Source of the DNA: a virus
IMG/VR virus record: IMGVR_UViG_3300037278_000090
Location: 1-22,315 of that record
Strand: one strand, 5' to 3'
Length of the DNA stretch: 22,315 nucleotides
Shown: piece by piece, positions 3,902 to 22,037 of the stretch
Position numbering within the stretch: the stretch's first letter is position 1
Layout: each line of letters opens with the position of its first letter
The notes under the pieces: generated by a model
Told to the model about the DNA's origin: nothing
Seen by the model: only the letters and a program-made list of their open reading frames with translations
The model's database searches: none
Program-made: the position numbers and the translations under genes

Positions 3902-4198
3902 GTGGCAGCCAATGGATATGCCCCATCCGCTTCACAGCAAGTTGTAGCAAGCGGAATAGCGAACACCATCGCCAATCCAGGGACCGGCGCAACGCTGCGT
4001 CTTGCCAATGTGGGAGCCGAGCCTGTGTATGTCGCACTGGGCGCATCGAGTCCTGTTGCGGTCACTCCCCAGACGGGACTCGCGATCTTGCCCGGCGCGC
4101 CTGCTGAGTTTCTGACGGCGGTATCAAACGGGTTCATCGGCTTCGTGACTGACGGATGCACTTTCAACGTTCGGCTCAACATCTCGCAAGGGACGTAG
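3902..4198 (+). CDS. Small beta-rich structural protein of unknown function
   Basis: A 98-residue product with a GTG start preceded by GGAGG inside the end of the tube gene. It is Ala/Gly/Val-rich with alternating hydrophobic residues (for example PVYVALG and FIGFVTDGCTFNVRL), suggesting a beta-sandwich. No signal peptide or membrane segment is seen. It lies between tube and tail chaperone, where P2 has no gene. It could be a tail or head decoration protein, but I do not recognise a family and make no firm assignment. Confidence 0.7.
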   Translation: MAANGYAPSASQQVVASGIANTIANPGTGATLRLANVGAEPVYVALGASSPVAVTPQTGLAILPGAPAEFLTAVSNGFIGFVTDGCTFNVRLNISQGT

Positions 4199-4245
4199 AG
4201 GCCGAACCACAACCATAGCCGAGCACCGGCGTGAGGTGATTCACC

Positions 4246-4629
4246 ATGGCAACAGGACCCATCGTACTGACTTCCGATACAACCCCCTCCCCCGAACAGA
4301 TTCGCCGCGAGTTCGACCTTCCCTCTGGCAAGCACGTGATCTTGCTGAAAGGTACTGGTCGTGACCAGCGCCTGGCCGCTACGGTCGCCGGCGAGAATGC
4401 CGACAGCATCAAGATTCAGGACGCCCTGGCTTCCCGTCTGTCCCTCGTGGACGGCAAACGCATCCGCATGGAAGACGTGGACGAGATGGACTTCGACGAT
4501 GCGATGGTGTTTCGCGCCGAGGTCTCTCAGGTATTGCGCCCTTTGCTCCAGAGGATTTCGAGTGTCCTGAAACCGGATCAGGACGCGCCGAAACCCGCAC
4601 AGGACGCGGCAACCGACCAGTCGTCCTAA
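4246..4629 (+). CDS. Tail assembly chaperone, first part (Mu gp41 / P2 gpE-like)
   Basis: A 127-residue acidic protein beginning at ATG 4246 after a GAGGTGAT ribosome binding site. It has a compact N-terminal domain (residues 1-100, with PSGKHVILLKG and a MEDVDEMDFDDAMVFRAEV helix) and a Pro/Asp/Gln-rich tail, as in phage tail assembly chaperones of the Mu gp41/P2 gpE kind. Location between tube and tape measure is diagnostic for these genes, which coat the tape measure during tail assembly. Family assignment is by context plus composition rather than a unique motif. Confidence 0.7.
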   Translation: MATGPIVLTSDTTPSPEQIRREFDLPSGKHVILLKGTGRDQRLAATVAGENADSIKIQDALASRLSLVDGKRIRMEDVDEMDFDDAMVFRAEVSQVLRPLLQRISSVLKPDQDAPKPAQDAATDQSS

Positions 4630-4631
4630 CC

Positions 4632-4781
4632 ATGGAAGCACTGGGCGCGATGGTGCATGAGGGGGTGAGTCCTGAATCCATCGATTCCATGTCAATAGGC
4701 GATTTAGTAGGGTGGTACCTAGTTCTACAACAGTACAGCCGAGCCGTTGAAAAGCGCATTCCGAAGCGGAGGAAACCTTGA
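4632..4781 (+). CDS. GpE'-like tail chaperone partner (49 aa)
   Basis: A short frame of 49 residues in the -1 frame relative to the preceding chaperone, starting two bases after its TAA. It contains PESIDSMSIGDLVGWYLVL, which resembles the conserved P2 gpE' pattern of a Pro, a Met, a D/E-L-L and a Trp helix, and ends in a basic tail (KRIPKRRKP). In P2 this part is made by a -1 frameshift fused to E. Here the -1 frame is open for at least 75 nt upstream of this ATG, but no X-XXY-YYZ slippery heptamer is present. No ribosome binding site precedes the ATG either, so termination-reinitiation is the simplest expression route. Its TGA overlaps the TTG start of the tape measure. Confidence 0.65.
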   Translation: MEALGAMVHEGVSPESIDSMSIGDLVGWYLVLQQYSRAVEKRIPKRRKP

Positions 4782-6535
4782 GCGAAGACGATCAAACATC
4801 CATACTGAAAGTCCTCGTCCAACTCCGCGACGAAGTGACTGACCCTCTAAAACAGGTCAATGACCGATTCAGCGAGATGGCGGAGAATTTCGCCAGTATC
4901 GGCATGGCTGCTGGTGAAGTGTTTGCTGGATACGAGGCGCTGAAGACGGTAATTGAGCCCGCTGCTGCCATGCAAGAGCAGATGGTCAGCCTAAAAGAGG
5001 CCACTCTCGCTAATGCGGATGCGATGGAAAAGTACAAGCATCAGGCAGATGAGGTTGGAACTTCCTTGCCACTGAAGGGTGGCGCAGAAGAAGCAATGCA
5101 GGCAATGACGGAACTGTACAAGACGTTCCGTGACGATGGGGCGATCAAAGAACAGACCGAGACCGCAGCAAAATTAGCCGTAGTCATGGGAGACACGGCC
5201 CCGCTCGCGGCAAAAGTCTTGTCTTCGGCAGTTCAGAACCTTGGAGACACGAGTCGCCCCGTTGTCGATCAAATGAAGGAGTTTGGCGACGAAATAGCCG
5301 TTCTTCAGGCGCGCTTCCCGATGGGCAGCGGTGGCCTGATGCGCATGTCGATGGCTCTTCGGATGCTCGGCACAGCGGCCCAGGTCAACAATGTTGCGCA
5401 GAAAACCATGCTCGCCCTGATGGCCGAGGGTAACAGGATCAACCTTGGTGGCCCGCGCGGATCGGGGCCCATACTTGCGGGAATCGTCAACTCTCTGCTC
5501 AAGATGAAAGATGGTCGCTACGAAATGGAGAAGTATGGCCTCCAGGTCGTAAAGACAACCGATGGGCACGTCAACCTCATCAAGACTCTTGAGAAGATGA
5601 GCGAACTTTCTGACAAGCAGAAGCGCGCACTTGAGTCTTCCATGGGTAGTCAGGGGGCCAACGTCTCTTTGCTTATCAAGCACATGGACGATTTGAAGGA
5701 GGCGTACAACGAAATAGACCACGCAAGTGGGCAGTTAGATCAGGACGCGAAAGACCGCACTGCTACCTTCGATGCGCACATGCAAGAAATGAAAAATTCG
5801 TGGCAGGCGCTCAAGGAGTCTATCGGGACTCATATCCTTCCTGATCTGACTACCGACATTAACCAGATGACGGAAATCATAAATAAAATGAACGAGTTTT
5901 CCGATAAGCACCCGACTGCGGCGAAAGCTGCCGGAAGAGGTTTGGAGCTTGGAGTAGGAACGGGAATTTTAGCAGCGGCAGTAAAATTAGGGCCGATGAT
6001 GTGGAAAGGACTTGGCGGTGCCGCTGCTTACGGATGGGCGCGCAGTTTTTTCCCGGCGGCGACAAAGACGCTGTCTGCTCGGGAAGCAATGTATGGCGGG
6101 AGTAAAGCCGCTGAGGCAGCAGGACTCTCAAGATTTCTTCCATTTATTGGAGAGGCGGTGACTGGGGGGATGATGGGATGGAGTGCTGGCCACTGGTTGC
6201 AGAGGCATGACCCCATTGGATTTGAAGCCTATCAAGGGATGCAAGAGAAAACATCCGTATTGGAAGGTTGGAAAGGGCCTATCGCAGTTCCCGTACAGGG
6301 AAATTATGGATGGAACACTGAGGCGTTCGGATCGCCTCGATTGGCAAACCCGTTCGCTAATACCACACCATTTTCCGCGCTTGGATCAGCCGGAACCGTA
6401 AACAATAATCCAAATATCAACATCTACCCTCCAAGCCAAGAAATGGACCCAAAAGCGATGGGAGATATGGTTGAACGGGAGATTGAGAAGTATAACCAGC
6501 AAAATGCCCGTAAGCAATTGGGGGGAGGCCGCTAA
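4778..6535 (+). CDS. Tape measure protein
   Basis: A 585-residue protein with a TTG start overlapping the previous TGA (TTGA) and GGAGG 5 nt upstream. It is mostly helical with heptad repeats. Phage minor-tail/TP901-like features include an N-terminal helical region, a Gly-rich loop near residue 190 (FPMGSGG), and two hydrophobic segments near 380-420 and 450-475 that could insert into the host membrane after ejection. It follows the tail chaperones and precedes U and X homologues, the canonical tape-measure position. At about 1.5 angstroms per residue it would predict a fairly short tail of roughly 80-90 nm (inference). The 3' third looks AT-richer than the 5' part. Confidence 0.88.
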   Translation: MSEDDQTSILKVLVQLRDEVTDPLKQVNDRFSEMAENFASIGMAAGEVFAGYEALKTVIEPAAAMQEQMVSLKEATLANADAMEKYKHQADEVGTSLPLKGGAEEAMQAMTELYKTFRDDGAIKEQTETAAKLAVVMGDTAPLAAKVLSSAVQNLGDTSRPVVDQMKEFGDEIAVLQARFPMGSGGLMRMSMALRMLGTAAQVNNVAQKTMLALMAEGNRINLGGPRGSGPILAGIVNSLLKMKDGRYEMEKYGLQVVKTTDGHVNLIKTLEKMSELSDKQKRALESSMGSQGANVSLLIKHMDDLKEAYNEIDHASGQLDQDAKDRTATFDAHMQEMKNSWQALKESIGTHILPDLTTDINQMTEIINKMNEFSDKHPTAAKAAGRGLELGVGTGILAAAVKLGPMMWKGLGGAAAYGWARSFFPAATKTLSAREAMYGGSKAAEAAGLSRFLPFIGEAVTGGMMGWSAGHWLQRHDPIGFEAYQGMQEKTSVLEGWKGPIAVPVQGNYGWNTEAFGSPRLANPFANTTPFSALGSAGTVNNNPNINIYPPSQEMDPKAMGDMVEREIEKYNQQNARKQLGGGR

Positions 6536-9863: not shown

Positions 9864-11150
9864 ATGCCGGTCATAATCCCGAATCAATCATTCCCATCGG
9901 CCACCGGCACTCCTCAGACGGTTCCTGTTGACCTGCCCACGCCTTCATTCGTCAACGACTCAGACGGCTTAGATGCAACGCTGGTCCTGAACGACATGGT
10001 GAGCAAGTTCGAGACAGACACCGGCAGGACCCTCTACCCGGCCCAGGTCGAGCAGTTGCTTATCAACCTCTACGCCTACCGCGAGATTCTGGTCCGGAAC
10101 GCGATTCAGTATTGCGGACTTCAGAACCTGCTCGCATTCGCCGTCTACCCGATGCTGGACTACCTCGGCGAGTATCTGGATTGCCCCAGACTCCCCGCGC
10201 AGTACGCCACGACGACGCTACAGTTCACGCTCACCGCGGCGCAGTCGTCCGACACCACGATAGCCTCTGGCACGCAGGTCGGGACTCAGGACGGCCTCAA
10301 CATCTTCGCCACAACATCAGCGCTCACGATTGCCGCTGGACAGACGACAGGGACCGTGGCGGCGCAATGCACTACGGCAGGACTCAGCGGCAACGGCTAC
10401 CTCGCTGGGCAGGTCAGTGTCCTGATGGGTTCTTTCCCGCTTGTCTCTGCCGTCTCCAACACGACGACCACGGCCAACGGAACGGCAGGTGAACCGGCCG
10501 GAACCACTGCGGGAGACAACCACTACCGCACACGCATCCAGGCGGCACCGAACAACCTCACGACGGCAGGACCATCTGGCCAGTACCGGTCTCTTGCGCT
10601 CGACGTGAGTTCGACAATCGTTGATGCACAAGTCCCGACTAATCCGACAACGCCGGGCACGGTGCAGGTCTATATCTTGACAGGACCCGTAACCCAACCA
10701 TCGGCATCCCCAAACAGCAACGGCATCGCCTCTGGCACCCTGCTTTCTGCGGTTCAGTCGGCCCTCAGTGCTCAGACCGTGCGGCCTCTTTGCGACACCG
10801 TTCTAGTCTCCGCTGTGACTGAAGTCGATTACACGGTGACCGGCGCGATCACGCTTTACGCCAACGCCAGCTACTCAACCATCGCTGCTGGTATCACTGC
10901 GGCGGCGCAGAACCTCGCTCTGACACTCGCTGCAAACATTGAGCAGGACATAGTCCTGAGTCAGTGGCAATCGGCTCTCAGCGTGTCTGGCGTCTACGAT
11001 ATGCAACTGACGCTTACTGCGAACATCGGCGGTACACCACTCACGCCAACCTCGGACGGTAGCTTTTTGCTCACGGCGGGACAATGGGCAAACTGTACTG
11101 CAATCAACTTGACTATCGTCATGGGCACAAAGAACCAGCCAGTTAGCTAG
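9864..11150 (+). CDS. Baseplate wedge protein, gpJ-like
   Basis: A 428-residue protein with ATG directly after the W-homologue TAA. The N-terminal helical part (AQVEQLLINLYAYREILVRNAIQYCGLQNLLAFAVYPMLDYLGEYLDC) and central Thr-rich beta region (ASGTQVGTQDGLNIFATTSA, AGEPAGTTAGDNHYRTRI) match the baseplate_J family (P2 gpJ, T4 gp6-like). The C-terminus has a conserved-looking DIVLSQWQSALSVSGVYD. It dimerises to form the wedge ring in related phages. In P2 the next gene is I; here a fibre cassette intervenes. Confidence 0.9.
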   Translation: MPVIIPNQSFPSATGTPQTVPVDLPTPSFVNDSDGLDATLVLNDMVSKFETDTGRTLYPAQVEQLLINLYAYREILVRNAIQYCGLQNLLAFAVYPMLDYLGEYLDCPRLPAQYATTTLQFTLTAAQSSDTTIASGTQVGTQDGLNIFATTSALTIAAGQTTGTVAAQCTTAGLSGNGYLAGQVSVLMGSFPLVSAVSNTTTTANGTAGEPAGTTAGDNHYRTRIQAAPNNLTTAGPSGQYRSLALDVSSTIVDAQVPTNPTTPGTVQVYILTGPVTQPSASPNSNGIASGTLLSAVQSALSAQTVRPLCDTVLVSAVTEVDYTVTGAITLYANASYSTIAAGITAAAQNLALTLAANIEQDIVLSQWQSALSVSGVYDMQLTLTANIGGTPLTPTSDGSFLLTAGQWANCTAINLTIVMGTKNQPVS

Positions 11151-11169: not shown

Positions 11170-13131
11170 ATGAAACGAATCGCGCTCTTTATTTTCCTGA
11201 TCTTGTCAGTTATCACATGCTTTGCGCAGACCCAGATTGACCCGACATATCAAGTAGCATGGAACCTTTTGACCGGATCAGGTGCGCCGTCGAACAGTTG
11301 CACGCAAAATGGTAACTACACAGTTTATCCGTATGGCGCAGAGTGGGGCCAGTCTTATCAGGACACGACGAACAACGTGCGGTATAACTGCACATCGACT
11401 GGATGGATGCAGGGAGCCGCTTCCTCAGGCATAGTGCCTATCGTGGACGGCGGCACAGGGGCAACCACAGCAGCCGGGGCGCTGGTGAACCTTGGCGCAG
11501 CCCCAGCCTTTACGCTGACCACGACAGGCACCAGCGGCCCGGCTACGTACGGTGGGAACGTCATAAACATTCCGCAGTATGCAGGCAGCGGCGGCGCAGG
11601 AGTAACTCAAATCATCGCTGGAACAAACGTTACAGTGTCGCCGTCTGGCGGAACAGGCGCTGTGACGATCAACGCTACGGGGGGCGGAAGCGGAGGAGTC
11701 CAATATAATCCGCCGAATACTGTGTATATGTGGGGCGCAGGGGATTCGTCAATCTCTGACGATGGCCGATTGTATGGTGGCAGCACGACAGCAACGGCAG
11801 CAAATTGCAACGGTACAGTGTGTATCATCACCGCTCCGAATAGCTATGCGGCCGGTCAAACTATTTGGATTGACGGGACGTGGAGTCCGAGCTTTTTGAA
11901 TACTGTAACGGCACCTCAATATCTCGGGACCGGGCATGGATTTTATCAAGTAATTTCGACCGGCCTAAGCAGCACTCAATTTGAGTTTGCATATACTTCA
12001 GCCAGTGGTACGGGAACTGGCGGAACTGTACGTGATACCAGCTATATGGTGCCGTTTCTTTCAGGCTCAATGCCATTTTTGAATGGACACGGAACCACAA
12101 TCGTAGAAGTCGGTCAAGAGTCAGGACAAGGATTTACGATTCAAGCGTCTCTCGATAACTTCTCAGCGCTTTATGGGTCTTATGCTCCCAACGTAACCGG
12201 TAATCCCGGCTTCTTCTTTATTTCAGGATGGAAAAACGACGTGGGAGCACTGAATGAGAGTGCGAGTACCGTTGTATCCAACATACAATCGCTCATGGCA
12301 CTGGCTCATGCGTCAGGCTGGCAGGTTATCGCGATGACAGAGTGGACGTCGGTTACTGGCGGAAATATGACAACCAGCTATATGGCGCAGATCAACAGCG
12401 ATATTTTGCAGCTAGGAAAAACCAACGCCAACGCTTCCAGTGGCCAATATTGGGATTATATAGTCGATGCGGCATCGGGAGTTACAGATCCGGGTCTCAC
12501 ATATACACCCTCAACTGTTCCGCTTATAGCCGCCAAAGTAAACGAGGCTTTTGCGTCACAAAAATCGGCAACCACTGGACTGTCTACGATGTTTTCTCTT
12601 GATACCGGTCCGAATACATGGAGAATGCAAGGGAATAACGGATTAGAAATTTGCGCAGCAAACAACCCAGTCTGTATGTTAACTGTCTATTCAAATGGTA
12701 ATACGACGTCGGTGAATAATTTCAATGAAACTCAAACAGCAAGTGTAAATGACCGTGGTGGTACTGGAATTGGAAGTCCGATTCTCGTATCTAATCCAAG
12801 TTCTTACTATCCTACCGGCGTCACAGAATACTTCCCAAGCTTGTCCGCTGGCCAATACGGAAGCATGTTGTATGCCTATGACCAGATTGGCGATCACTTT
12901 TCATTGCACATGGAAAATACAGGATCAGCGAGCATTTTCGGAATAAGTGGCTCACAAGAATTTTCATCGACACCAACAGATATACTGCAAGTGTTTGCCA
13001 ATGGCAATGTGGCAATCCCCGCTGAAGCACCGTTCGCAGGGTATGCCGCGTGTTTCACGACAGGCGGAACAATGGGTCACTGTACGTCAATTATAGGAGC
13101 AACCGGAACGTGTACGTGCGTCACACCGTAG
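11170..13131 (+). CDS. Tail-fibre-like protein with Sec signal peptide and possible SGNH hydrolase domain
   Basis: A 653-residue protein with AAGGAGA upstream of ATG 11170. Residues 1-19 look like a cleavable signal peptide (MKRIALFIFLILSVITCFA, then QTQ), which is unusual for a virion fibre. Residues of about 88-110 hold the tail-fibre motif VDGGTGATTAAGALVNLGA, then AGTNVTVSPSGGTGAVTIN. The middle (about 180-460) resembles an SGNH/GDSL fold: GAGDSSISDD (block I-like), FFISGWKNDVG (block III-like GxND), and DPGLTYTP near the end where block V would have Asp-x-x-His but His is missing. The mature part has ten cysteines by my count. The gene looks AT-richer than its neighbours and lacks the iterated CAGGACTC motif, suggesting recent acquisition. 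Receptor-binding or polysaccharide-modifying function is inferred. Confidence 0.72.
   Translation: MKRIALFIFLILSVITCFAQTQIDPTYQVAWNLLTGSGAPSNSCTQNGNYTVYPYGAEWGQSYQDTTNNVRYNCTSTGWMQGAASSGIVPIVDGGTGATTAAGALVNLGAAPAFTLTTTGTSGPATYGGNVINIPQYAGSGGAGVTQIIAGTNVTVSPSGGTGAVTINATGGGSGGVQYNPPNTVYMWGAGDSSISDDGRLYGGSTTATAANCNGTVCIITAPNSYAAGQTIWIDGTWSPSFLNTVTAPQYLGTGHGFYQVISTGLSSTQFEFAYTSASGTGTGGTVRDTSYMVPFLSGSMPFLNGHGTTIVEVGQESGQGFTIQASLDNFSALYGSYAPNVTGNPGFFFISGWKNDVGALNESASTVVSNIQSLMALAHASGWQVIAMTEWTSVTGGNMTTSYMAQINSDILQLGKTNANASSGQYWDYIVDAASGVTDPGLTYTPSTVPLIAAKVNEAFASQKSATTGLSTMFSLDTGPNTWRMQGNNGLEICAANNPVCMLTVYSNGNTTSVNNFNETQTASVNDRGGTGIGSPILVSNPSSYYPTGVTEYFPSLSAGQYGSMLYAYDQIGDHFSLHMENTGSASIFGISGSQEFSSTPTDILQVFANGNVAIPAEAPFAGYAACFTTGGTMGHCTSIIGATGTCTCVTP
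11638..11688 (+). repeat. 51-bp perfect direct repeat, copy 1
   Basis: Fifty-one bases identical to 13442-13492, encoding SPSGGTGAVTINATGGG in the same codon phase in both genes. The copies start 1804 bp apart. Homology continues weakly upstream (about 70% by eye) but identity is exact only in this block, which suggests recent gene conversion or duplication. Confidence 0.95.
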
Positions 13132-13154
13132 CTTGTATTCAGCAGGGAAATAAC

Positions 13155-13193
13155 ATGCAATTGACAGCGGTAAAAGGGCCAACGGGGATTTAA
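13155..13193 (+). CDS. Possible 12-codon micro-ORF coupled to the fibre paralogue
   Basis: ATG at 13155 has AGGGAA upstream and encodes MQLTAVKGPTGI, ending in TAA that overlaps the ATG of the next gene (TAATG). It may be a fibre remnant or a leader that feeds ribosomes into the next frame, which has only a weak binding site of its own. This short frame could easily be chance. Confidence 0.3.
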   Translation: MQLTAVKGPTGI

Positions 13194-13615
13194 TGGAAAA
13201 TGCGAAGGACGGAAAAGACGAGAAGTTAATATGTTTCCAGTGCATCCATGAAGATGATATTCACAGGCTGCTGAAATCGCTTCTCGACGGAAATGGTCAG
13301 CCGTCCCTCATGCAGAGGTATACCGTGACTGAAATAGCGGCAGGAAGCAATGTAACGGTAGGTACATCTGGGAACACAATTACGATAAATTCTACAGGTG
13401 GTGGCGTCAGTCAAATCGTCGCTGGCACCAATGTGAGTATTTCGCCGTCTGGCGGAACAGGCGCTGTGACGATCAACGCTACGGGGGGCGGAGGCGGCGG
13501 TGTGGCGATTCTATCGAGTCAGGCCGCGGTGAGCAGTTGGCCGACTATTAATGTTTCGGGCGGATCGGGCGGTTCTGGCGGGGCAGGCTGGTATATGGAG
13601 TTTGCTGGTTGGTAG
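13193..13615 (+). CDS. Truncated tail-fibre paralogue (tip cassette)
   Basis: A 140-residue product with a hydrophilic N-terminus (residues 1-40, including CFQCIHEDDIHRLLKSLLDG) and then two fibre repeats: TEIAAGSNVTVGTSGNTITI and SQIVAGTNVSISPSGGTGAV, ending in a Gly/Ser-rich stretch and YMEFAGW. The second repeat shares 51 identical bases with the upstream fibre. It has no signal peptide. It stops at TAG 13613-13615, while a sensible fibre-like sequence continues in the -1 frame to 13740, so the gene is probably frameshifted or uses recoding. It may be a decayed or silent alternative tip. Confidence 0.55.
   Translation: MENAKDGKDEKLICFQCIHEDDIHRLLKSLLDGNGQPSLMQRYTVTEIAAGSNVTVGTSGNTITINSTGGGVSQIVAGTNVSISPSGGTGAVTINATGGGGGGVAILSSQAAVSSWPTINVSGGSGGSGGAGWYMEFAGW
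13442..13492 (+). repeat. 51-bp perfect direct repeat, copy 2
   Basis: Exact copy of 11638-11688, inside the truncated fibre paralogue and read in the same codon phase. Crossing-over between the copies would delete about 1.8 kb and fuse the signal-peptide end of the first fibre to this tip in frame. Confidence 0.95.
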
Positions 13616-13740: not shown

Positions 13741-13837
13741 GTGACATCATGGTAGTAGCTTGCACCGGTAACTAAGTTGTGGGCGCTGCGGTGCCTGAGC
13801 AGGACCAGAATCTACGATAGAGGGACGGGCCAAAGGA

Positions 13838-13871
13838 GGGCCTGAGAAATATGGCAAACAATCTCAGGCCC
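13838..13871 (+). promoter_or_regulatory. Perfect 10-bp hairpin enclosing the gpI start codon
   Basis: GGGCCTGAGA (13838-13847) and TCTCAGGCCC (13862-13871) are exact reverse complements with a 14-nt loop that contains the ATG (13851). The ribosome binding site AAAGGAGG (13832-13839) runs into the 5' arm. In RNA this would occlude initiation, so it is a likely translational control element. A DNA operator is the alternative. Confidence 0.75.
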
Positions 13872-14984
13872 GCATCATCTATCAATGACCTCCGCACCCA
13901 AGCCCACATGCAACTCTCTGCTCGCCTTGAGTCCATCGACCTCACGCCTTTGCTTATCAGGACTCTAGGAAACAACCTCCCGGCATCCATCTTGCCCTAC
14001 TTGATATGGGAACTCGATATGATGATTCCGAGTGTCCCGATGCAGGCGTTGGGCGTAACATCCCAGACCATCATCCAAAATACTCTTCGGCTTCACAAGA
14101 TCATGGGCACGCCGGGAGCAATCATCCAGGCTCTCGGGCTCTGCGGCGCCACTGCGACCTGCTATGAGGGGCAGACGTCGTGGGGAGGATCTTCATATCC
14201 CGCTGACCAAGGGTGGGCCGTCTTCCGCGTGGGAGTGAGCGGATCAGGGCAAGCCCCAATTGGAGTTATCAATGGAGTTAACCGGTCTTTCAACCTTCCT
14301 GCGGTGCCAGTCGGGAATTCGTTGCGAGTCTTCTACAACGGGCTTTTGCAGCCAACCACGAACTACACCACATCAGGAACAGGACTCACGATGTCCTTTG
14401 CTCCTGCGTTGAATTCTGCGTTGGATGTCCTGATGCGCAAGGCCACGGACGGCACTCCGCTCTACTTCGATGCCGTTGTGCCGACCGTCTCGGGTTCGAA
14501 TCTGGTACTGCCAGACGCCCCGATTTCCATTGAACTCTACCGCAATGGATTATTCCAGATCATGGACACCACGCCAGCGCAACTCGGCTACATGGCCACA
14601 ATCATTAACTTCTTCAAGCCCGCACGGTGTCTGCTGGATTCAGTGTTCTCGGAATCTGGAGAGGATTACTACATCCTCGACGGCAACACCATCATTCCAT
14701 CTGTCCCGATTGGCAGCGCATCTTTTCTCGCTTGGGGAACCTACGCCGGAAGCGGAACTGAACCAAACTTTGCCGATTGGATTACTCCAGCCGGAACTCT
14801 AAACGGGATTAACAAAGTCTTTACGTTGCCGCAAGCCCCGAATCCCGCCGCCAGCCTTCGCCTTTACCGCGGATGGCAAGTTCTGAAGCCGGGAGGGGTT
14901 GACTTCACGTTGAGCGGCGCAACGATCACCTACACCATCGCCCCGCCGCCCACGGCCACGCATCTGGCATTCTATCGCTACTAG
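13851..14984 (+). CDS. P2 gpI-like baseplate/tail protein with C-terminal beta repeats
   Basis: A 377-residue protein. The first 100 residues match the Tail_P2_I pattern: QLSARLESIDLTPLLIRT, then LPASILPYLIWELDM and IIQNTLRLHKIMGTPGAIIQALGLCG. gpI lies at the baseplate periphery and connects to fibres. The rest is made of beta-sandwich repeats: INGVNRSFNLPAVP with VFYNGLLQPTTNYTTSG, and LNGINKVFTLPQAPNP with RLYRGWQVLKPGGVDFTLSG, typical of fibre-like modules. The start lies in a strong hairpin. In P2 this gene follows J directly; here it is separated from J by a 2.7-kb fibre cassette. Confidence 0.85.
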   Translation: MANNLRPASSINDLRTQAHMQLSARLESIDLTPLLIRTLGNNLPASILPYLIWELDMMIPSVPMQALGVTSQTIIQNTLRLHKIMGTPGAIIQALGLCGATATCYEGQTSWGGSSYPADQGWAVFRVGVSGSGQAPIGVINGVNRSFNLPAVPVGNSLRVFYNGLLQPTTNYTTSGTGLTMSFAPALNSALDVLMRKATDGTPLYFDAVVPTVSGSNLVLPDAPISIELYRNGLFQIMDTTPAQLGYMATIINFFKPARCLLDSVFSESGEDYYILDGNTIIPSVPIGSASFLAWGTYAGSGTEPNFADWITPAGTLNGINKVFTLPQAPNPAASLRLYRGWQVLKPGGVDFTLSGATITYTIAPPPTATHLAFYRY

Positions 14985-15086: not shown

Positions 15087-15371
15087 ATGGAAACGAAGAT
15101 TGAACCGAACGAAACCGCTATTGTGACTCCTGTCATGCTGCCAGCCTGCCCGTATTGCGCAGACGATCCGGCCCGGCTCTCGATCATGAACCAGATCTTT
15201 CCTGGCGGCATGATTGGCGCCATCATCTTCTGCGGGAATCCAGAGTGCCGGAAGATCATCTCGACGCAGATCGTTGGGCGGATTGAGCAACAGATAGCAA
15301 ATCAGGACTCGAAGCCTCAAGAGGCCGTAGTTGCTGGCCCGCAGTTGGTGAAGTCTCCGGAGGCCCTGTGA
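15087..15371 (+). CDS. Small zinc-ribbon-like protein
   Basis: A 94-residue protein. I chose ATG 15087 because GGAGG lies 8 nt upstream; an in-frame TTG at 15072 overlaps that site. Residues 20-60 contain CPYC and later CGNPEC separated by about 28 residues, a likely two-pair zinc ribbon around a hydrophobic loop (PGGMIGAIIF). The C-terminus is hydrophilic and probably disordered. The TGA overlaps the GTG start of the following fibre gene, so the two are translationally coupled. No specific family recognised; a fibre-assembly or regulatory role would be speculation. Confidence 0.72.
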   Translation: METKIEPNETAIVTPVMLPACPYCADDPARLSIMNQIFPGGMIGAIIFCGNPECRKIISTQIVGRIEQQIANQDSKPQEAVVAGPQLVKSPEAL

Positions 15372-16429
15372 AGCGATCAGTAAAGCTCATCATCGCCCTC
15401 GCCGCTCTCTGGCTTTGCGCAGCCTTTGCCATCGCCCAGGCTCCCATCGGAGTTTGCCTGAACAATGTCGCACAGACCATCTCAAACGGCGTCATTGCTC
15501 CGATTCCCTACGCCACCGTTGCGCTCTGCACGCCAGGCTCGACAGCGGCCAATTGCGTGGCGAACAAAGTCGGCATCTACACCTCGACAGCCCTCAGCAC
15601 GGCAACCCCCACAAACCCATTCACATCTGACGCTGGCGGCAACTACTTCTTCTGCGCCCATGTGGGGCATTACGGGCTTCTGATCAACTCCTCGTATGGC
15701 CAATATTTTGTTCCTGATGTGACCTTGGATGACAACTGGGCAGCCGGCGGGACGATGACCGGACCTCTCACAGATGCCGCCGGATTCATCGGTCCCCTAT
15801 CCGGAAACGCCAGCACGGCATCTGCCTCTGACCATTCTCCTACTCAGTGCGGGTCAGGACTCTACTCTCAGGGCGATACGACGAGTTGGTCTGCAAACTG
15901 CGCTCAGGTTCAATGGGGCCAACTGGGCGGTATACCCTCCCTCGTGACGAGCTTTAACACCCGCACAGGAGGTGTGACGCTGACCGCCGCTGATGTGGAT
16001 GCAGTCGGCAACATCACCAATAGCACGAGCGGCAATGCTGCCACAGCAACAGCGCTAGCCGCAGCCGGAACGACGTTGACGAGTCCTGCTGTTGCCAAGG
16101 GTGTGGACGCTTCGGGTAATGCTATTGCTCAGACCTTCTCTTCTTCCTTTACTACCAATGGATATTCATTGCTACCGGGGGGGTTGATGATTCAGTGGGG
16201 GCATAGTGGCGCAATTGCCGACGGTTCGCCTGGTACGGATGTTTGTTTCAATACACCATTCCCCCATTCGGTATTTTCGGCCGGCGTGTCAGACGATTTT
16301 GCGGTTGGCGCTACGAGTACAACGTCAGTCCCAGCGCTCAGTGCTTCATCATGCGGATCGAATGGCGGAATCCATGTCTGGGGAACGCGCTCAGGTAATG
16401 GGGTTTACTGGTGGGCGTTCGGATATTAA
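15368..16429 (+). CDS. Tail fibre protein with Sec signal peptide and gp53-like C-terminal domain
   Basis: A 353-residue protein with a GTG start (GTGA overlap) and GGAGG 4 nt upstream. Residues 1-24 form a clear signal peptide (MKR, a hydrophobic core, then AFAIAQA with an AxA-type site). Residues 25-120 look like a beta-sandwich with ATVALCTPG, NPFTSDAGGNYFFCA and GHYGLLI. The middle has fibre-type GNASTASA and GNAATATA repeats. The last 90 residues (from NGYSLLPGGLMIQWG to WWAFGY) match the gp53-like fibre C-terminal domain, which forms the receptor-binding tip. Eight cysteines remain after cleavage. Export of a fibre is unexpected; the hydrophobic start could instead be an uncleaved anchor. 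Confidence 0.82.
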   Translation: MKRSVKLIIALAALWLCAAFAIAQAPIGVCLNNVAQTISNGVIAPIPYATVALCTPGSTAANCVANKVGIYTSTALSTATPTNPFTSDAGGNYFFCAHVGHYGLLINSSYGQYFVPDVTLDDNWAAGGTMTGPLTDAAGFIGPLSGNASTASASDHSPTQCGSGLYSQGDTTSWSANCAQVQWGQLGGIPSLVTSFNTRTGGVTLTAADVDAVGNITNSTSGNAATATALAAAGTTLTSPAVAKGVDASGNAIAQTFSSSFTTNGYSLLPGGLMIQWGHSGAIADGSPGTDVCFNTPFPHSVFSAGVSDDFAVGATSTTSVPALSASSCGSNGGIHVWGTRSGNGVYWWAFGY

Positions 16430-19001: not shown

Positions 19002-22000
19002 ATGGACTTATCAACCAGACTATTGCTGCTCAACCGCAGGACTCGGATTCAGCGTCCTGTCGAGAACCTGAACGCTTATCAAGAGGTCTACACCTCACTT
19101 TCCAGTCTTCAGGATGAAGCGGTGATGTGTCCGCGATCGATGAAAGAGCCGATGCGGGAGGCCATGGAGCGGGTGCGCGCCGAGGTTGGCGACTTGGATG
19201 AGTTCTTGGCCCGCGAACTGGAGTACCCCTCCGTCAAGGAGATGCAGAGCTACTTCATGGGCCTCCAGGTTGACGCCATTGCTCTGGCTATCTGGCAGAT
19301 CAGACGCAGGAAGGCGCTCGTCGAAGGAACCCAAACTGGTATTGGCAAAGGTAGAGAGGCTGCTGCTATCTGTAGATGGTCTATTTTGCATGGCTTAATC
19401 CCAATATTTTGCACCTATCAAGACACTTTATTCACCGCTTTCCAGATTGATCTTGACGACATCGGCTTTGGACCCAACGTCTGGCCGTTGCTCTTCAATG
19501 CTGGGGCGTCGATAACCGAGCAGGTAACAGGACGCAAGATATTCGCCAACAAGAGCAGTATGAAGGGGGTCCTGACCCGCATATCCGAAACTGGCGAACT
19601 GCCCCGCGCGCGCAATGCCGTCTACCTGACCTATTCGCAGATCAACACGATCAACATCCAGCAGGAAGCCCTGAGACGGTTGGCGCCGAAAGCCGTCTTT
19701 ATCCTTGACGAGTCCCACAATGCCGGCGGAGACGAGTCGAACACGGGCACATTCTTCCAGGAGGTTCTGCCCGCAGCGCACGGCGTGATGTTCCTGTCGG
19801 CAACGTGGGCGAAGCGGCCGGACAACATGACGCTCTACGCGACCAAGACAGACATCTCGATTGCCATTCCCGACAACCAGCGCGTCTCTGACGCCATCCG
19901 CGCCGGCGGTCCACCCCTACAGACCGTCGTGAGCCATCAACTCGCCCAGACCGGCCAGCTTGTGCGGCGGGAGCGGTCCTTTGAGGGCATAAGCATCTTG
20001 AATTTCATTGACGACCGGAATCATCTTTATCAAGAGCAGGTGTGCGACGATGTGACAGAAGTCCTGCGCGCCATATTCAAGGCGGATCAGGACTATCATC
20101 AGAACGATTTCGAGACGTTGCGCCTCCAGTACAAGAAGCGGCACATCAAAATCTACCACCACAAGTTCAGCGCCATCGTTCACAATATCGTGAAGCAGTT
20201 CCTCCTGGCCTTGAAGTCGGACGCGGCGGCAGATTGCGCCATCGAAGCGCTCGGACGCGGGGAAAAACCGATTGTGGCCCTTGAGAGCACCATGGGGGCG
20301 TTCCTCGACAGCTATGTGAGCGCGGCGAATATGAGCGAGGGAGAAGTGCTTGATAAGCTCTCATGGTCCACTATCCTCAGACGCGCGCTCGACAGGACCC
20401 TCCACTACACCATCAAGACCTCAATGGGCAATGACCGCCAAGAGTTCCCGCGCCATCTGCTCTACGTCGAAACAGAAGCGAAGTACCGGGAGGCTGAGAG
20501 GCTGCTGGACGCCCTTGCGGTGACGTTGCCCGTATCGCCTATCGACTGGATCAGGACTCGAATCACGCAAGCCGGCTACACCGTGGCAGAGATTACCGGC
20601 CGTTCCTACCGAATCAACTACGCGGGTCCCGTTCCGGTCCTGTCTTCGGTCCCGGCCAGCGAGCGCAAGGACCGCGTACAGACTGGCAGTCTGTTTAATA
20701 ACGGCGGCGTCGATTGTCTCATCCTCAACCAGGCCGGTTCTACGGGAATCAGCCTTCACGCCTCCGAGAAGTTCAAAGACCAGCATCAGCGGCACATGAT
20801 CGTTGCCCAGCCGGCCGGCGACGTGAACGTGTTCATGCAGATCCTCGGACGTTCGAACAGGACCGGCCAGATGGTCCTGCCAAGGTACACGATGCTCTCC
20901 CTGGCCATCCCCGCAGAGATTCGCCCGGCCATCAGCCTCGCCAAGAAACTGAAGAGCCTGAACGCCAACACGTCGAGCAACACGCGGTCGGCAATGTCGA
21001 TTGAGGCGCCAGACATGATGAACAAGTACGGCGACAAGATCGTGGCGGAATGGCTGCACGAGAATGAGCAGATTGCCCGTCTCATGGGCCTCACGATGGA
21101 CAAGTCGGAAGAGGAAGGGGGTACTCCAGAGGAGGACCTGGCGCGCACGGCAACAGGACGCTCGGCATTGCTTCCCGTCAAAGAGCAGCGCGAGTTCATG
21201 GAGACGATCACCGAAAGCTACACGGACTACATCGCCTACCTCGACGAAACCGGGCAGAACGACCTTGAACCCAAGACCTACGACTTCGATGCAGAGCAGA
21301 AGACCTCACACGTCATTTACGTTGGCTCGGACCCTTCATCGCCATTCGGGGAAGATGCCATCTTCGGAACCTACTCAATCAAGCGTCAAGGCAAGTCCTA
21401 CACCCCGGAAGAGGTCGAGGAACTCATTGCACAGACTTATGGTCCTGACCTCATGAAGTACGAGCCATGGCAGCGGGACACGTACCACGCGCGGGCCTTG
21501 AGCGCACACCTTGAGGGCTTGTTCAAGCCATACATTGAGGGCGTGGAAGCCCCACACATCTTTGATCGAGCGCAGAAAATCAGGGAATGGTCACGGTCGA
21601 TATTGAACGACTTCCGAATGGGAACAGGACTCAGAATCGAAATCAACGGAGACACCTACAACGGCATCATCTACGACATTCGCGGTCGCAAGAAGGTAAG
21701 CGGAAACCCCTACGCACCCAGTTCGCTGAAGTTCTACATTGCCGTCAACGGACCCTTGCGCGAGGTGCGCGTCCCTGGCTCTCAGATCAAGAAGATCACG
21801 CTGTCGAACCTTGGACGCAATGCGGATATTGCTGAACTGTTTCAGGACTATCTAAGCGACACTCGGCAGCGCGCCAAGATCATCACCGGGAATCTGCTGG
21901 GAGCTTATGGGCAGTTGAAGCCGGGCAGCAAGGGAAGAATTATCACGTTCACAAAGCATGAGGGCGGCACAGAGCAGGGAATCTTGATGCCAGCACGGTT

Positions 22001-22037
22001 CGATTGGGAGAAGGACATTCAACCACAGAAACTATGA
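19002..22037 (+). CDS. Strawberry-notch-like (SBNO) DExH helicase / NTPase
   Basis: A 1011-residue protein. ATG 19002 is the only upstream start possible because TAA lies four codons before it. Motifs in order: Walker-A-like GTQTGIGKGREAAA (about 109-121), DESHNAGG (236-243) as DExH Walker B, LSATWA (265-270) as motif III, and a second RecA-like domain with NQAGSTGISLHA (about 575-586) and ILGRSNRTGQ (about 613-622). These match the SBNO / P-loop 'pore-1' and Helicase_C_4 families, present in many large phages. The region beyond residue 660 is unrecognised. No methyltransferase domain is fused. It probably acts on phage DNA or RNA during the lytic cycle; the exact role is not known. It has its own promoter and no close neighbour. 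Confidence 0.88.
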   Translation: MDLSTRLLLLNRRTRIQRPVENLNAYQEVYTSLSSLQDEAVMCPRSMKEPMREAMERVRAEVGDLDEFLARELEYPSVKEMQSYFMGLQVDAIALAIWQIRRRKALVEGTQTGIGKGREAAAICRWSILHGLIPIFCTYQDTLFTAFQIDLDDIGFGPNVWPLLFNAGASITEQVTGRKIFANKSSMKGVLTRISETGELPRARNAVYLTYSQINTINIQQEALRRLAPKAVFILDESHNAGGDESNTGTFFQEVLPAAHGVMFLSATWAKRPDNMTLYATKTDISIAIPDNQRVSDAIRAGGPPLQTVVSHQLAQTGQLVRRERSFEGISILNFIDDRNHLYQEQVCDDVTEVLRAIFKADQDYHQNDFETLRLQYKKRHIKIYHHKFSAIVHNIVKQFLLALKSDAAADCAIEALGRGEKPIVALESTMGAFLDSYVSAANMSEGEVLDKLSWSTILRRALDRTLHYTIKTSMGNDRQEFPRHLLYVETEAKYREAERLLDALAVTLPVSPIDWIRTRITQAGYTVAEITGRSYRINYAGPVPVLSSVPASERKDRVQTGSLFNNGGVDCLILNQAGSTGISLHASEKFKDQHQRHMIVAQPAGDVNVFMQILGRSNRTGQMVLPRYTMLSLAIPAEIRPAISLAKKLKSLNANTSSNTRSAMSIEAPDMMNKYGDKIVAEWLHENEQIARLMGLTMDKSEEEGGTPEEDLARTATGRSALLPVKEQREFMETITESYTDYIAYLDETGQNDLEPKTYDFDAEQKTSHVIYVGSDPSSPFGEDAIFGTYSIKRQGKSYTPEEVEELIAQTYGPDLMKYEPWQRDTYHARALSAHLEGLFKPYIEGVEAPHIFDRAQKIREWSRSILNDFRMGTGLRIEINGDTYNGIIYDIRGRKKVSGNPYAPSSLKFYIAVNGPLREVRVPGSQIKKITLSNLGRNADIAELFQDYLSDTRQRAKIITGNLLGAYGQLKPGSKGRIITFTKHEGGTEQGILMPARFDWEKDIQPQKL

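Follow-up and report, generated by a model that had tools for sequence, protein, structure and literature searches.

A 51-bp repeat in a phage tail-fibre locus is probably the core of a reusable shaft linker recently made identical by recombination

Background

Modular mosaicism of tail fibres is known in P2, T-even, lambda and Mu-like phages. The locus described here resembles these systems in that a conserved N-terminal anchor is combined with exchanged bodies and tips, with short shared motifs as joints. It differs from them in that the exchanged unit lies between baseplate protein J and tail protein I, and in that downstream of the main fibre gene the linker recurs in a second open reading frame (ORF), which carries a tip. 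Invertible tail-fibre cassettes, as found with Gin in Mu and Cin in P1, need inverted repeats and an invertase. They, too, allow a constant N-terminus to be joined to alternative C-termini, but the repeats of the present locus are direct, and neither the viral stretch analysed here nor five related records showed an invertase. Polymorphic proteins such as Rhs are known for orphan or displaced C-terminal tips. The likeness to our case, an analogy only, lies in an older tip fragment downstream that has short homology to the main gene, whereas here a structural phage gene is concerned and the arrangement was shown in one population only.

In EfV12-phi1, 1.8-kb in-frame tandem duplications in the tail-fibre gene arose during coevolution with the host (PMC6365445), and duplications in the T4 adhesin expand host range (Tetart 1996, as cited in PMC6957217). 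As far as these two accounts go, the cases share with ours fibre-gene repeats that result from recombination and keep the reading frame. In EfV12-phi1, however, the 1.8-kb stretch itself is duplicated within one gene, whereas here 51 bp are repeated and flank different sequence. Both cases show that fibre-gene repeats undergo recombination and can have consequences; neither implies a dedicated switch at the present locus.

Results and discussion

Locus and fibre slot

The window, i.e. the whole stretch of 22,315 nucleotides that was analysed, is a 22.3-kb IMG/VR record of a soil or peat virus and carries contractile-tail genes, among them those for the sheath, baseplate protein J and tail protein I (gpI). 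The J gene (positions 9864–11150, plus strand as for all features of the fibre slot and gpI; PF04865, E 6e-45; phrog_6, E 1e-64) is the left neighbour of the slot, and gpI (13851–14984; PF09684, E 5e-5) its right neighbour. The J-to-I interval of the window is made up of the main fibre gene (11170–13131, 653 aa), which has a signal-peptide-like N-terminus, and of ORF2 (13193–13615, 140 aa), which consists of a 42-aa N-terminus, two tandem linker repeats and a C-terminal tip fragment. Starts resembling Sec-type signal peptides are present on both fibre genes of the window (11170–11230 and 15368–15440), the first one being conserved throughout the relatives; such starts are surprising in virion proteins, since these assemble in the cytoplasm. 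The tail genes are followed by a 1011-aa ORF for a Strawberry-notch-type helicase (19002–22037; PF13871, PF13872). J proteins in genome contigs were only 50–58% identical and mostly belonged to Proteobacteria or Deltaproteobacteria MAGs, and no host was assigned.

In relatives with 87–97% identical J, the J-to-I interval varies from 2.4 to 4.8 kb, and reaches up to 6.1 kb where a contig end cuts J. Among more distant relatives (70–76% J identity), it comprises 0.8 kb in one group and 7–8 bp in several; the fibre is thus optional cargo of the J–I position, as J and I lie 7–8 bp apart in L034, L037, L038, L039 and L040. Common to the relatives are the fibre N-terminus up to position 11406, where blastn similarity to most of them ends, and a block at 13775–13846 directly before gpI, while nearly everything between 11406 and 13775 is unrelated. 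Of the main fibre, the N-terminal ~79 codons are kept in relatives and the remainder is replaced, so that a conserved anchor (11170–11406), which forms the left border of the swapped region, is joined to unrelated C-terminal bodies as in other modular tail-fibre loci. These conserved ends around an unrelated middle indicate that fibres are exchanged at two borders, one near codon 79 and one just upstream of gpI, and not at the 51-bp repeat discussed below. For the fibre N-terminus, no match was found in the phage collection.

The right border of the slot is the conserved leader of gpI (13775–13850) with ATCTACGATAGAG and the element GGCC-AAAGGAG-GGCC. Of the 275 fetched loci, some of which overlap, 49 have the sequence ATCTACGATAGA of this leader, each a single time and just upstream of gpI wherever checked, and the ribosome-binding sequence AAAGGAG has GGCC on both sides, as in the loop of a small hairpin. 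Judged by these elements, the leader may combine a promoter with translation control. In L094, the main fibre is followed by a second large ORF (4010–6508) that starts like a signal peptide and is preceded by a partial repeat of the gpI border block (L094:4008–4035), an arrangement that suggests stepwise insertion. In L111 (position 3258), a tip end 99.9% identical to that of L013 is found in frame after an unrelated structural-type ORF; L111 may be a chimera or a real fusion and was left out of the count of tip swaps.

The repeat pair

Copy 1 of the repeat (11638–11688; shaft-linker core SPSGGTGAVTINATGGG) lies in the main fibre gene and copy 2 (13442–13492) in ORF2. As the original prediction had stated, all 51 bp are the same and are read in the same codon phase (phase 0 of the ORFs starting at 11170 and 13193), with differing bases adjoining them. 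The moderate similarity that it had described for the flanks was also found: the cores are embedded in directly oriented blocks of 101 nt with 85% identity (11599–11699 and 13403–13503, spacing 1804), and a BLAST alignment around the repeats covers about 87 nt at 88.5%. The linker parts beside the core are homologous yet diverged (GVTQIIAGTNVTV versus GVSQIVAGTNVSI). A chance origin of the 51-bp identity is excluded, and the null model chosen for the pair was that of two homologous linkers and not chance.

Measured against other linkers, the pair stands out. Over a 42-nt core, 64 distinct linker copies share a mean identity of 68.7% (sd 7.3), third codon positions matching in 33%; in three other genomes with two linkers, the cores of the same genome are 74–79% identical, whereas the window pair is 100% identical. 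That selection on DNA or protein maintains the identity could be argued from the amino-acid motif, which is strongly conserved across phages, but with a third-position match of 33% on average and same-genome pairs at 74–79% elsewhere we consider this very improbable. Of the proposal that the identity is either maintained or recent, the second half stands: the values for unrelated linkers and for other same-genome pairs indicate that it marks a recent event and not general maintenance. Recent recombination, duplication or conversion accounts for the identity of the pair better than constraint.

Fibre-gene repeats may also suggest a diversity-generating retroelement or a site-specific inversion cassette, to which we give practically no credence here. 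The repeats are direct and not inverted, differences within the 101-nt block are not limited to A positions, and searches of the window and of five related records, possibly fragments, gave no RVT_1, Resolvase or Phage_integrase. Thus, no reverse transcriptase is seen near the fibre gene, and inverted repeats with a serine recombinase are likewise absent.

The linker as a joint in other phages

The repeat encodes the core of a fibre-shaft linker, GTNVxxSPSGGTGAVTINATGGG, with (G)VTQIIAGTNVTVSPSGGTGAVTINATGGG. Patterns derived from ORF2 yielded 423 matching stretches in viral contigs, and the linker is present in fibres of dozens of unrelated contigs; a literature search with the linker letters gave no match. 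In a gapped comparison, 62 distinct linker contexts fell into 25 upstream and 27 downstream types that form 32 combinations, in which five of the upstream types have several downstream partners and four of the downstream types several upstream partners. In the pair L132 and L144, for example, DNA identity is 97% upstream of the linker and 92% within it, and the sequences beyond are unrelated, the types again being confirmed by gapped comparison.

The break rate, i.e. the rate at which only one side is shared, was determined with a 50-aa window per side and a shifted-joint control; its numbers are indicative, since the linker or sequence next to it served to recruit the contexts, and pairs are non-independent. 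It amounts to 0.47 at the linker and to 0.00–0.10 at points at least 75 aa downstream or at least 150 aa upstream, points 25–50 aa away being unusable because their windows include the linker. A rate of 0.55–0.59 was obtained 75–100 aa upstream of the linker, at the start of another common module, so the linker is not the sole joint. Gapped clustering and the shifted-joint control replaced an ungapped breakpoint mapping, in which one-residue shifts created false breaks. As far as can be judged from sequence comparison, the linker acts as a mix-and-match joint between differing shafts and tips in unrelated viral contigs. The 32 combinations and the L132/L144 pair bear out the view that it is a natural shaft/tip joint in other phages, and a short motif is thereby common to the joints of different modules.

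Main fibre body

The fibre body (11689–13128) comprises a first part of ~300 aa that is probably SGNH/GDSL-hydrolase-like, followed by a C-terminal domain. The body encoded in the window had no Pfam match, and its counterpart in L013 matched PF13472 weakly. A low-confidence AlphaFold model of the body built from four sequences (mean pLDDT 49.9) had mostly GDSL/SGNH enzymes as neighbours in the PDB (best E about 0.003).

The body differs from its surroundings in GC3 (0.435, compared to 0.61 in the shaft, 0.58 in the ORF2 tip and 0.58–0.70 in neighbouring fibre parts and genes). A change-point analysis of raw GC (log-likelihood gain 24) lets a low-GC segment end at 13442, where copy 2 begins, with support intervals of 11598–12024 and 13259–13484 that include the repeats. 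At four-fold sites, the difference between segment and flanks shrinks to p 0.047, so the change-point lends weak support only, and composition alone was rejected as proof of import. Much of the GC contrast may go back to glycine-rich protein composition.

ORF2 and its tip fragment

The tip fragment of ORF2 (13493–13615), with the native stop (GGAGWYMEFAGW*), is the end of a glycine-rich fibre tip and shares 61–62% of its amino acids with the ends of the L102 and L104 fibres. The last 43 residues of ORF2 match the C-terminal ends of these glycine-rich tips, stop included. A frameshift in ORF2, considered because an open frame continues downstream, was rejected, as the stop coincides with the native end of the fibre in both. 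With dN of 0.15–0.23 and pS of 0.57–0.86 relative to L102 and L104, the fragment shows no visible decay. The "spare tip" proposed downstream of the main fibre thus holds true insofar as ORF2 ends in real fibre-tip sequence, but it is a fragment: only the last ~40 residues are retained after copy 2, whereas the glycine-rich tips of relatives, seen in truncated contigs, measure at least 188–197 aa. A complete-domain alternative tip is therefore not present.

For the ORF2 N-terminus, a pattern search of viral contigs revealed no relatives outside its own population, and other relatives have other small ORFs at the same position. L119 has a comparable layout with a short N-terminus, two linkers and a different head, and on this ground ORF2 could encode a genuine, if short, fibre protein. 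This likeness also speaks for an explanation by gene conversion only, according to which fibre and ORF2 were both functional genes with diverged linkers, in which a short conversion tract homogenised 51 bp and nothing was moved. The homologous but diverged linker parts beside the core and the conserved tip are in line with such a history; it leaves unexplained, however, the composition change near both repeats and the truncated glycine-rich tip after copy 2, and we regard it as possible but rather unlikely.

Fate of the 1.8-kb segment

The original prediction had read the locus as a one-way host-range switch, in which recombination between the repeats deletes 1.8 kb and joins the signal peptide and shaft of the main fibre to the spare tip. 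The join is in frame, as predicted: the deletion product is open over 213 residues with a single terminal stop, and the reciprocal join is likewise open up to its terminal stop. Together with 51 bp of identical homology, the use of the linker as a joint elsewhere and the undecayed tip, this favours the switch. The population itself speaks against it. A degenerate scan of IMG/VR for the 50-nt linker core returned four contigs, all of the same population, and none with a deletion junction. L003, L004 and L005 show the arrangement of the window with its two copies, and the truncated L084, which starts at window position 12311, has copy 2 with the unswitched left side. L004 differs from the window in about a hundred alignment columns, all between 6 and 8 kb; the strains of the population thus vary, but in L004 the fibre slot is unchanged. 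Since L003, L004 and L005 come from other metagenome identifiers, and L084 agrees where it covers the locus, an assembly artefact is extremely improbable, although the window is a metagenome contig and assemblers may go wrong at short repeats.

Reverse transcriptase, serine resolvase, tyrosine integrase, RecT and Erf were all absent from the window and from five related records (35–61 kb, possibly incomplete), so no dedicated recombinase was found there. Moreover, the switched product would carry a tip of ~40 aa and lose the whole SGNH-like body. The junction lacking the 1.8-kb segment, which was to be sought in related genomes, is thus missing among the IMG/VR contigs, and relatives swap fibre bodies at borders other than the repeat. 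We judge the switch improbable. A dedicated one-way switch is not supported, and the repeats look like an ordinary recombination scar. Equally improbable is a spare tip kept for use, with homologous recombination by host or phage functions acting on the 51-bp repeat to switch fibres and the 213-residue fusion of shaft and tip present in a minority of genomes.

A proposed history of the locus

The repeat is probably the core of a reusable shaft linker of which the main fibre has one copy and ORF2, with the end of a different, glycine-rich tip, the other. Homologous recombination at the linker would have made both copies identical in a recent event; by the most likely route, the AT-richer fibre body between the repeats would have entered at the linker, and the earlier tip would have been pushed downstream as an orphan during wholesale fibre exchange in the J-to-I slot. 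If the two copies recombined, an in-frame fusion of shaft and tip could be restored, but there is no sign of regularity or control in this.

Import of the body at the linker appears to be the most likely history in view of the widespread linker, the 74–79% identity of other same-genome pairs, the tip match to L102 and L104, the hypervariable slot (7 bp to 6.1 kb) and the GC segment ending near the repeats. Against it stands L013, where signal peptide, linker and SGNH already follow one another; copy 1 may thus be ancestral, with no insertion needed at this point. No relative was found in the pre-insertion state, with signal peptide, linker and glycine-rich tip and without a body.

Conclusions

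For a host-range switch at this locus to be of consequence, deletion junctions would have to turn up in reads. What the locus offers is a concrete recombination scar, as it appears, at a linker common to many unrelated phage fibres, and the definition of a fibre slot that is hypervariable inside sharp, conserved borders in an uncultivated group of soil or peat phages.
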